NCBI RefSeq assembly: GCF_014138265.1
Contig: NZ_JACGXL010000002.1
Coordinates: 496,001-560,000 of the forward strand
Length of the DNA stretch: 64,000 bases
Origin: Dokdonella fugitiva
GTDB lineage: Bacteria; Pseudomonadota; Gammaproteobacteria; Xanthomonadales; Rhodanobacteraceae
Direction: 5' to 3'
Part shown: positions 17,753 to 23,269 of the stretch, one piece after another
How positions within the stretch are numbered: position 1 is the first letter of the stretch
How the letters are laid out: every line of letters begins with the position of its first letter
Position numbers and translations under genes: made by a program
Notes under the pieces: model-generated
Database searches by the model: none
What the model was told of the DNA's origin: nothing
The model's input: only the letters and a program-made list of their open reading frames with translations

Positions 17753-18781
17753 TCAGGGCAGGGGATCGCCGAGGAACGCGAGCAGTTCGGCGTCGCCGAC
17801 CGCGCCGGGATCGGCGAGGTCGAGCCCCGCGAGCGCAGCGGGAACGACCGGACGCTCGAAGCGGAAGTAGTCGAACTGCGCGCGCAGGTCCGGATCCGCG
17901 GGCACCTGCGCGTCGAGCCACGCATGCTCGATGCGCGTGCGGTTGTGCTCGGCATACGGATACGTCGAAGCGATCGCCCAATCGGTATAGACGGTCATGC
18001 CGACCTGCAGCGCGAGCGGGAAATCGTCGCGCCGGTAACGGCGGTGCACGATCCACGACGCGCCGGGATCACGCACGAGCAGCAGCAATGCGCCACCGAT
18101 GCGCGCGACGCGCAGTTCCTCCTCGTCGGCCTGCGCGGAGGCGATCTCGAGGTTCGACACGCTGTGCGTCTCGGGCGCGATCGCCGCACGCGTCGTCTTC
18201 GCTTCGAGCTGGTACGTGCCGGGCTGGTCGGCCGCGCCGAACGAGAGGAACACGTAGCGTTCCCCGCCCGGCTGCCACCACGACGAATCGCAACAGGCGA
18301 CGTCCTCGTGCGGCGCACGCACGAGGATGCCCGCGAGCGAGAACTCCGAGCCGGCCGCGCCCCCGTGCGTGCCGCCCGGCGCGGCGTTGCCGCCACGCGC
18401 ACGCGCGCGCACGCGCGTCGTCGCGACGAAGTCGCCGCTGACGGGTTGGAACGCGAGCTCGCCGACGTAGTCCTCGTACCACGTGCTCGTCCACGGCACG
18501 AACGTGATCCAGCCCGCGAGCGGAGAGCCGATGTCGAACTGCTCGAGCGGGTCGCGCCCCCAGTATTCCTCGCGCCAGATGCGGTGCCAGTTGCCGAGCG
18601 TCGCGGGCGAGTCGAACTCGTCCGACATCGGCGCGATGTCGGCCGATTCGGGCCGTTCGAAGCCGTCGCGCAGCACGAGATCGGGCAGCGGGGCGCCACC
18701 CGCATGCACGCCGCCCGAGGCGAGCACGGCAACGAGCACGAACATCAGGCGCAGGCGTGGATGCGTACGTGCGGTGTTCAT
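17753..18781 (-). CDS. Secreted lectin-like protein of signalling locus A
   Basis: Encodes 342 residues with a signal peptide (about 1-27). After the motif LPDLVLRDGFERPE (about 33-46) comes a beta-rich region from about residue 55 (DEFDSPATLGNW..., GWITFVPWTSTWYEDY) that resembles concanavalin-A-like/DUF1349-type domains, which often bind carbohydrates. Its ATG overlaps the stop of the kinase gene (ATGA at 18778-18781), so it is translationally coupled to it and a candidate output or partner of the sigma-kinase pair. The analogous position in locus B has no such gene. Function is inferred from fold resemblance only. Confidence 0.75.
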   Translation of the reverse strand: MNTARTHPRLRLMFVLVAVLASGGVHAGGAPLPDLVLRDGFERPESADIAPMSDEFDSPATLGNWHRIWREEYWGRDPLEQFDIGSPLAGWITFVPWTSTWYEDYVGELAFQPVSGDFVATTRVRARARGGNAAPGGTHGGAAGSEFSLAGILVRAPHEDVACCDSSWWQPGGERYVFLSFGAADQPGTYQLEAKTTRAAIAPETHSVSNLEIASAQADEEELRVARIGGALLLLVRDPGASWIVHRRYRRDDFPLALQVGMTVYTDWAIASTYPYAEHNRTRIEHAWLDAQVPADPDLRAQFDYFRFERPVVPAALAGLDLADPGAVGDAELLAFLGDPLP

Positions 18782-21964: not shown

Positions 21965-23269
21965 TCAGATGCGGTCGAATGGTTCGAAGAAGATCACGTC
22001 GCCCTGCAGCTCGACCGCGCCGATGTCGCACAGCGCGGCACCGTCGCCGTCGAAGTCGACCGGGCGGTCGGCGAGCGACTGGTCGTCGTCCTCGCAGCCG
22101 GTCGCGCTGAACAGCGGATGGCCGTGGTCGATCGCGACGCTGTTCGGCGCCGGCCAGATCGTCGGCGTCGGTCCGCCGTGGTCGGCGAGCGGCGTGAGCT
22201 GCGGATCGACGCCGACATGGTTCGAGCCGCCGCCCGACAGCGCGCAGGAATCGTCGGAATCGAGGTTGTAGCGGTTCGTGTCGGTCGCGACGCCGCCGGC
22301 GATCGCGCAGTCGGCGAGTCCGTTGTGCGCGATCATCGTGTTGTGCATGAGCACGCTGCCGTCGCTCATGCCGAGGCCGCGTTCGGTGTTGCCGGCGATC
22401 GTCACGCTCGACAGTTCGAGGTCGCCGCCGTCGATGTTGATCGCGGTGCCGGTGTTGTGGAAGAACGTCGTGTTGGCGATGCGCACCGAACCGGAGCCGG
22501 CGCCGAGCGGCTCGCTGTCGATCGCGTTCGCGGTCGGCGTGAACGTGCCGGACGGCGCGTCGGGCAGGCTGATCGGCACGCCGCTGTTGTGGTGGATCAC
22601 GCTGTAGGAGACTTCGAGGTTGCCGCGATTGCGGATCGCGCTGCCCGACGGCGTCGCCGTGCTGTCGCCGCGGAAGATGTTGTTGCGAAAGACCGAGCCG
22701 CTCACGCGCGTGTCGGCGCCGGCGTTGTAGAGGCCGCCGCCGAGCTCGGCGGTGTTGCCCGAGACCTGCATGAGGATGAAATCGACCGAACCGGCGCCGG
22801 AGCGCACGAGCACGCCGCCACCCGACGTCGCCGCGGCGCTCGTCGCGGCGCCGCCGGAGATCGTGAAGCCGAGCAGGGTCACGTTGCCCGCGATCACGTC
22901 GAACACGCGGTCGATGCCGGCGGCGGACACGACCGGGCGTTCGCCCGAGGCGAAGAAGCGGATCGTGAGGTCGTCGCTGATGTCCAGGTCGCCCAGCGCG
23001 GCGGTGTCGTCGCCCTGGCCTTCGCGGTCGAGCGTGTAGTGGAACCCGGCGAGCAGGTCGATCGTGTCGGCGCCGGCGAGCGCGTTCGTTTCCATGATCG
23101 CCGCGCGCAGCGTGCACGGTCCCGCCCCCGGCTGCGGGAACACGTTGCAGAAGCCGTTGCCGGGAATGAGGTCGGGCAGGTCGGCTTCCTGGTTCGCGGT
23201 GAAGGTCGCGCCGCGCGCGACCACGCAGGCAGCGGCAAGGACGATGGCGATCGGCAGGCGGGCGTGCAT
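21965..23269 (-). CDS. Secreted CSLREA-type beta-helix protein (locus A)
   Basis: Encodes 434 residues. A signal peptide (about 1-20) is followed by a CSLREA-like motif (PCTLRAAIMETNA) and repeating beta-strand turns with GGG, N-T and SGN steps typical of right-handed parallel beta-helix/choice-of-anchor surface proteins. The C-terminus ends DVIFFEPFDRI, a short motif seen in related forms at the ends of other secreted proteins here. AGGAG precedes the start at 23269. It lies 83 bases upstream of the sigma factor, same strand. The locus B protein at 42892-44160 is a clear full-length paralogue. It may be the extracellular product or sensor of the system. Confidence 0.85.
   Translation of the reverse strand: MHARLPIAIVLAAACVVARGATFTANQEADLPDLIPGNGFCNVFPQPGAGPCTLRAAIMETNALAGADTIDLLAGFHYTLDREGQGDDTAALGDLDISDDLTIRFFASGERPVVSAAGIDRVFDVIAGNVTLLGFTISGGAATSAAATSGGGVLVRSGAGSVDFILMQVSGNTAELGGGLYNAGADTRVSGSVFRNNIFRGDSTATPSGSAIRNRGNLEVSYSVIHHNSGVPISLPDAPSGTFTPTANAIDSEPLGAGSGSVRIANTTFFHNTGTAINIDGGDLELSSVTIAGNTERGLGMSDGSVLMHNTMIAHNGLADCAIAGGVATDTNRYNLDSDDSCALSGGGSNHVGVDPQLTPLADHGGPTPTIWPAPNSVAIDHGHPLFSATGCEDDDQSLADRPVDFDGDGAALCDIGAVELQGDVIFFEPFDRI

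Follow-up and report, generated by a model that had tools for sequence, protein, structure and literature searches.

Within a 64,000-nucleotide stretch of the Dokdonella fugitiva genome (hereafter the window; C2:496001-560000 of a 4.77-megabase genome in 13 contigs, genome label G000), four consecutive minus-strand genes, which we call locus A, encode a secreted right-handed beta-helix protein, an ECF43-type sigma factor, a PknS-like receptor kinase with a C-terminal tetratricopeptide repeat (TPR) domain, and a secreted protein of a putatively DUF1349-related family. Judging from sequence, the sigma factor and kinase are a pair of a known kind, ECF43-type with PknS-like. Locus A is one of about 20 kinase-and-sigma-factor switches in this one bacterium, and it is probably a sigma factor module switched by phosphorylation, the output of which consists of secreted proteins bearing a common short C-terminal tag. 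The original prediction, made for locus A, had missed the roughly 20 further loci of the same kind. The gene order, its conservation, a promoter-like element, the tails and the enrichments described below can be read directly from the DNA.

Gene organization of loci A and B

The beta-helix gene (21965..23269, minus strand; 434 amino acids, of choice-of-anchor Q type, with the C-terminal sequence DVIFFEPFDRI) stands 83 bases upstream of the sigma factor gene (21318..21881, minus strand), which is followed by the kinase gene (18778..21321, minus strand) and by the gene originally predicted to be lectin-like (17753..18781, minus strand). The four genes, the 83-base gap and the ATGA overlaps at the sigma-kinase and kinase-lectin junctions are all present as had been claimed. 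None of the four encodes an anti-sigma factor, again as claimed; the flanking genes were called, and not all of them were family-scanned.

A second helix-sigma-kinase set, locus B, occupies window positions 39753-44160. Its beta-helix protein (gene at 42892..44160, minus strand) is about 50% identical to that of locus A and ends in DVLFHDPFERL. Its ECF43-type sigma factor gene (42209..42790, minus strand) could also begin at an earlier GTG at 42895, in which case it would overlap the helix stop codon, and the adjoining Ser/Thr kinase-TPR gene (39753..42212, minus strand) is joined to it by an ATGA overlap, just as in locus A. Since a second set exists in the window and the order recurs in relatives, the layout of locus A is more than chance.

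Gene order in relatives

We surveyed 197 family genomes for the helix family (E <= 1e-30) and for sigma factors of the type found in loci A and B (A/B-type; E <= 1e-36). The helix family is present in six genomes, and the A/B-type sigma factor in the same six plus G014 (7 of 197). A helix gene lies directly upstream of the A/B-type sigma gene in six of eight cases, namely both loci of the present genome and those of G059, G086, G131 and G121. The full helix-sigma-kinase order is seen in G059, G086 and G131, the last with two tandem helix genes, and the G121 contig ends after the sigma gene. No helix gene of this family is near the sigma gene of G014. In G026, sigma A and kinase A are kept at the A position and the helix gene is gone; at the B position, 19 kb from the A-type pair, the helix gene is kept and its sigma and kinase genes are lost. 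What G057 keeps of the cassette is a remnant (L280 6922-7066, G057:C1), made up of the promoter-like element, a ribosome-binding region and the first helix codons, immediately ahead of the gene that comes after locus A; everything else is absent. More distantly, the Wenzhouxiangella loci L174 and L210 carry tandem genes for a sigma factor, a kinase and a related helix protein. The original prediction had proposed conservation beside sigma-kinase pairs in relatives as a check on the beta-helix gene, and with four of the six sigma genes outside this genome preceded by a helix gene, and the element found at all eight helix genes, that gene is a real partner.

Two further arrangements were observed in the course of this survey. 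A metagenome-assembled genome of the Lysobacterales has three tandem beta-helix segments with sigma-kinase pairs on both sides (L175), and a 4447-residue open frame lies upstream of the G086 helix locus (L127 397-13740).

The sigma factor and the kinase

The locus A sigma factor matches PF07638 (E 1.8e-38, 132.8 bits against a cut-off of 21.1) and TIGR02999 (E 3.4e-45, 154.2 bits against a cut-off of 126.15). In region 2.2, where other extracytoplasmic function (ECF) sigma factors have DAED, it carries the uncharged ECF43-type motif STTV, and its locus B counterpart carries STTA; of the 21 sigma proteins of this genome that we compared, 20 keep the second threonine. In ECF43 sigma factors, such a threonine takes the place of the acidic DAED motif, and the kinase encoded next to the sigma factor phosphorylates it (PMC8999054; PMC13147305). 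The genome has 27 PF07638 matches, of which 21 are strong; the six weak ones were left out of the sigma clusters, and two of these (L039 and L040) have no sigma match at 1e-15. A Protein Data Bank (PDB) search linked the sigma factor to globins, a result that we disregarded as composition noise. At one other locus (L025 7371-13641), a single sigma gene is followed by two tandem kinase-TPR genes.

The locus A kinase consists of an N-terminal segment, a Ser/Thr kinase domain (Lys at about 113, HRDLKP at 204, DFG at 224), a single hydrophobic segment starting at about 399, and a C-terminal TPR domain, with TPR family matches at 605-673 and elsewhere. A PDB search matched it best, over its residues 9-372, to 9EED, the structure of the PknS kinase part from Xanthomonas citri (E 6.5e-42). 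Of the 22 such kinases that we called in this genome, 21 carry one or more hydrophobic segments ahead of the TPR part and 19 exactly one. This architecture agrees with the predicted placement of the TPR part outside and the sigma factor inside, and, together with the ECF43 features, it speaks for a module switched by phosphorylation. The earlier description of a kinase-linked sigma factor in an operon without an anti-sigma gene is supported as well.

The beta-helix protein and its C-terminal tail

The locus A helix protein matches PF13229 (Beta_helix, E 2.5e-7) and, over residues 355-422, the whole of NF041518 (choice_anch_Q, profile positions 1-58 of 58; E 5.9e-15, 55.3 bits against a cut-off of 25); a match to TIGR04212 is below threshold (28.5 bits, cut-off 295). 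The fold model has a mean predicted local distance difference test score (pLDDT) of 75.6, with residues 22-350 forming a mostly confident beta-helix, those after about 355 mostly below 50, and the last 25 all below 50. Foldseek matches of this model at E <= 0.001 include pectate lyase Pel9A and rhombotarget A, and the matches 9cdv and 9cdu have template-modelling (TM) scores of 0.48-0.55 by query length. A profile search of the PDB with the helix family gave one weak match, to a rhamnogalacturonan lyase (E 0.046).

The NF041518 domain ends 12 residues before the C terminus, and these last residues hold the tail. In the helix family the tail reads DVIF[FH]DPF[DE]RL or nearly so, with D424, F427 and P430 invariant in eight sequences. 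The beta-helix proteins share with four promoter-linked proteins (see below) the consensus D-x-I-F-x-[DN]-G-F-[DE] or a variant of it, and similar tails are present in relatives from Marinicella, Wenzhouxiangella and other Lysobacterales. A DNA pattern for F-x-[DN]-G-F-[DE] matched 166 times in this genome, as against two matches for the reversed pattern. Among the called proteins there are 52 distinct occurrences of the motif, 42 of them within 12 residues of the C terminus; the other ten lie further inside, some in truncated loci. In the 42 C-terminal tails, aspartate stands three residues before the phenylalanine in 36, and isoleucine, leucine or valine precedes the phenylalanine in all 42, although neither position was part of the search pattern. 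A crude signal-peptide test was positive for 30 of 43 tailed proteins as against 224 of 590 others. Over the 197 genomes, the tail is abundant in the genus of the present organism except G184, in the genus of G004 and G059, in g15 and g17 and in part of g9, and it is near the control level in most others.

The term choice-of-anchor in the name of the NF041518 family refers to the place where sorting signals stand elsewhere, and since the tail sits behind this domain, sorting or recognition is its probable role. It may be a new protein-sorting signal. Our literature searches found no description of such a tail. The original prediction had overlooked this feature.

Elsewhere in the window, two adjoining genes for secreted proteins (7282-9492 and 9720-12719, minus strand) encode an identical final 14 residues, AQDTGYIDSWSVTF. 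A gene at 33785-36490 (minus strand) encodes a fusion of a Trans_reg_C DNA-binding domain with a Ser/Thr kinase and with TPR repeats, and it adjoins a divergent gene for a secreted protein with the C-terminal sequence LIFRNGYDG (36750-38372, plus strand); perhaps this pair follows the same logic, with a fused regulator replacing the sigma factor. At 13251-16034 (plus strand), a Trans_reg_C domain is followed by TPR repeats, with no kinase match in the protein.

A promoter-like element

All eight helix genes, in six genomes, have upstream of them the element TKKCGTTT-N14-CGTW, in which CGTW begins exactly 19 bases after the beginning of CGTTT in every case and the spacers have diverged. In locus A the element is TGGCGTTT-N14-CGTA (23299..23324, minus strand), 29 bases short of the helix start codon, and a pattern scan gave TGTCGTTT-N14-CGTT for locus B (44193..44218, minus strand). 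The element is retained even at the G026 helix gene, which is without its own sigma and kinase genes. That all eight share it fits membership of the helix genes in the presumed regulon of the sigma factor.

The core pattern was counted four times in 766 kb of this genome and one to ten times in five Markov shuffles, so the number of occurrences is not above chance and the places in which the element is found are the telling part. We scanned 12 genomes for the longer form, TKKCGTTT-N14-CGTW, six with an A/B-type sigma factor and six without. The first six gave 20 matches, eight before helix genes and four before other genes for secreted proteins, and the second six gave nine, of which none is before a tailed gene and one is the G057 remnant. 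In all four cases among the 12 genomes in which a non-helix match is soon followed by a signal-peptide-like gene, the gene product is tagged. These four genes (G000 C5, G000 C7, G026 C29 and G121 C296) were found through the promoter and not through the tail, and such a tail is present in only about 5% of background genes (16 of 344 match the looser tail regular expression). Their products have beta-helix-like, BNR, delta-60 and choice-of-anchor Q matches, and their C-terminal ends are LIFADGFDPPPLVP, LIFADGVEAS, SLFADGFDAD and RIFADGFELQAF.

The element is absent from L174, L210, L175, L178, L228, L235, L125 and L124, and we therefore confine the promoter claim to the A/B group. A general promoter for all tailed genes was rejected; seven patterns were tried, and unbiased word counts gave nothing strong. 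In a comparison of 48 tailed with 398 other genes, the full element precedes four tailed genes (two of them in loci fetched for the element) and none of the others; the relaxed form CGTT-N14-16-CGT precedes 9 of 48 as against 12 of 398 (p 1e-4); TGTCG and a GGAA-type form are marginally enriched; and TCGTTT and [GT]CGTTT are not enriched.

Tailed genes next to sigma factor genes

In this genome, a tailed gene is immediately beside the sigma cluster in 14 of 21 clusters, as against 23 of 244 background positions (Fisher p 5.5e-9), and within two genes of it in 16 of 21 as against 40 of 244 (p 2.1e-8). On shuffled tails, the looser patterns behind these counts (loose1 and loose2) have false-match rates of about 0.2 and 0.5%. 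Among the 14 adjacent matches, one (L030, ending in DDAENETCAQ) looks spurious, and a gene with the strict motif adjoins it. With the strict motif, 10 of 21 clusters have a tailed gene within two genes, compared with 32 of 244 background positions (p 3.4e-4). In G004, with the regular expression unchanged, 4 of 20 sigma clusters have a tailed neighbour as against 5 of 221 background positions (p 0.0034); this genome has 21 TIGR02999 matches, from which 20 clusters were scored, L136 and L147 being incomplete at region ends. A widened expression gives 9 of 20 against 8 of 221, which is weak evidence, the expression having been chosen after seeing G004.

Across the 197 genomes, with at most 16 TIGR02999 sigma genes scored per genome, tail and sigma counts correlate with a Spearman coefficient of 0.52, a figure inflated by the relatedness of the genomes, which makes the counts non-independent. 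Of the 44 genomes in which the tail matched 20 times or more, 43 have three or more TIGR02999 sigma genes; of the 153 with fewer tail matches, 5 have five or more sigma genes (G008, G032, G061, G111 and G132).

Besides the dependence among genomes, several observations weigh against a module directed at tagged proteins. The tail regular expressions were designed with loci of this genome already known. With the strict motif, immediate adjacency is weak (5 of 21 as against 20 of 244; p 0.035 by Fisher's test). Several of the sigma clusters lack a tailed neighbour, and most of the tailed genes have no sigma gene next to them. The 20 element matches in the six genomes with an A/B-type sigma factor compare with 28 for the reversed-pattern control, and 8 of the 20 lie inside genes or before no fitting gene; it is also possible that other sigma factors use similar promoters. 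One might suppose that tailed genes are simply common in this genome and stand beside sigma genes by chance or in shared variable-gene islands, the regulon being something else. The weak strict-motif adjacency and the looser tails of the background genes speak for this supposition, but we consider it unlikely given the strength of the 14 of 21 enrichment, the repetition of the trend in G004, the promoter-like element that ties in unlinked genes, and the occurrence of helix and sigma genes together in 6 of 197 genomes.

The fourth gene

The protein encoded by the fourth gene has no Pfam or NCBIfam match itself; five of the eight members of its family alignment match DUF1349 (PF07081, best E 6.8e-9), and these matches of relatives fit a lectin-like fold without showing it. 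A single-sequence fold model was unusable (pLDDT 32.9), and a PDB profile search with the family gave no matches. Homologs are found in 8 of the 197 genomes, this one included. In the fetched surroundings of the homologs in the other seven, two of them on short contigs, no sigma or kinase gene adjoins; in one other region, L062, part of a sigma gene lies at a distance of about 5 kb.

The helix protein, sigma factor, kinase and DUF1349-like protein might still be thought a dedicated four-part system, in view of the ATGA overlap between the kinase and fourth genes and of a tag-like stretch near the N terminus of the fourth protein (DLVLRDGFERPE), which has a counterpart in the G121 homolog (DRLLIEGFEHA). 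Moreover, a different tagged secreted protein, with the C-terminal sequence DIIFQDGFD[DN], is encoded behind the kinase in G086 and G131, its ATG 78 and 180 bases, respectively, past the kinase stop codon. In G026, however, the kinase is directly followed by a housekeeping-like gene, the G121 homolog is on a separate contig with no kinase sequence in the 489 bases around its start, and in no relative seen does the fourth gene follow the kinase. A dedicated set of four is thus very improbable, and we have dropped the lectin-like gene as a conserved partner.

Proposed mechanism and the nature of the signal

We infer phosphorylation, promoter use, secretion and the role of the tag. The catalytic part of the kinase would lie inside the inner membrane and the TPR part outside it. 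By analogy with EcfP and EcfK, the kinase would phosphorylate the second threonine of the STT motif in the sigma factor, and we propose that the sigma factor would then bind RNA polymerase because the phosphate supplies the negative charge that is built into other ECF sigma factors. Once active, it would read the TKKCGTTT-N14-CGTW promoter before the helix gene, raising the levels of the sigma factor and kinase as well, and a few unlinked promoters of the same form before other genes for tagged secreted proteins. The tag would be D-x-I-F-x-[DN]-G-F-[DE], or DVIF-x-DPFERL in the helix family.

The secreted partner could instead be the input, with the periplasmic TPR domain binding the C-terminal tag of a client, or the folded helix protein, and so reporting on client synthesis or export, in which case the client would serve as signal and output alike. 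Some TPR domains do bind C-terminal peptides. The tag is common to the clients, as the TPR ectodomain is to the kinases (the hydrophobic segment is in the expected place in 21 of 22), and the tail of the helix family is conserved, though weakly modelled. The TPR part of PknS from X. citri is reported to be needed in vivo with its ligand unknown, and activation of ECF43 receptor kinases through the periplasmic part is posed as an open question in the same paper (PMC13147305). On the other hand, most tailed proteins have no adjoining kinase. We regard an input role as possible but doubtful.

A broader and more speculative proposal, which we think improbable, is that the D-x-I-F-x-[DN]-G-F-[DE]-COOH tail constitutes a new class of sorting or recognition tag of secreted proteins in this bacterial family, taking the place of the anchor or sorting signals of other bacteria, with the expanded ECF43 sigma/TPR-kinase pairs as its dedicated regulators; the TPR domain would read the tag, and the cell would sense the presence or export of tagged cargo and tune its synthesis through sigma factor phosphorylation. 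If true, this would provide a ligand class for orphan TPR receptor kinases. As for the module with a tagged output, the roughly 20 modules in one genome point to one output class, and perhaps ligand class, namely secreted proteins that share the tail. The modules and the tail offer a promoter to test, together with a list of clients and a peptide, and a lead to the purpose of such switches.

Comparison with known systems

Choice-of-anchor Q proteins and rhombotarget A, a GlyGly-CTERM substrate, resemble the locus A helix protein in their beta-helix scaffold. In contrast to the GlyGly-CTERM signal, as described in PMC6219818, the locus A tail has no glycine-rich stretch, hydrophobic helix or basic end. 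With a C terminus (GDVIFFEPFDRI) that has neither hydrophobic helix nor basic cluster, the helix protein was rejected as a GlyGly-CTERM/rhombosortase substrate.

In the precedent originally offered for locus A, EcfP-PknT of Vibrio parahaemolyticus, STTA replaces DAED, and the second threonine is phosphorylated by the neighbouring kinase; the output, however, is polymyxin resistance, and a tagged secreted partner is not mentioned in the accessible sections of that report (PMC8999054). The precedent is incomplete in that the closest known kinase, by the match to 9EED, is PknS of Xanthomonas citri. EcfK-PknS shares with locus A the series of N-terminal segment, Hanks kinase, transmembrane segment and C-terminal periplasmic TPR domain, as well as an adjacent ECF43 sigma factor, activated in that system by threonine phosphorylation (PMC13147305). 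The same source gives the output of EcfK-PknS as a type VI secretion system, whereas here the neighbouring and promoter-linked genes encode tagged secreted proteins, and the present genome has about 20 such modules.
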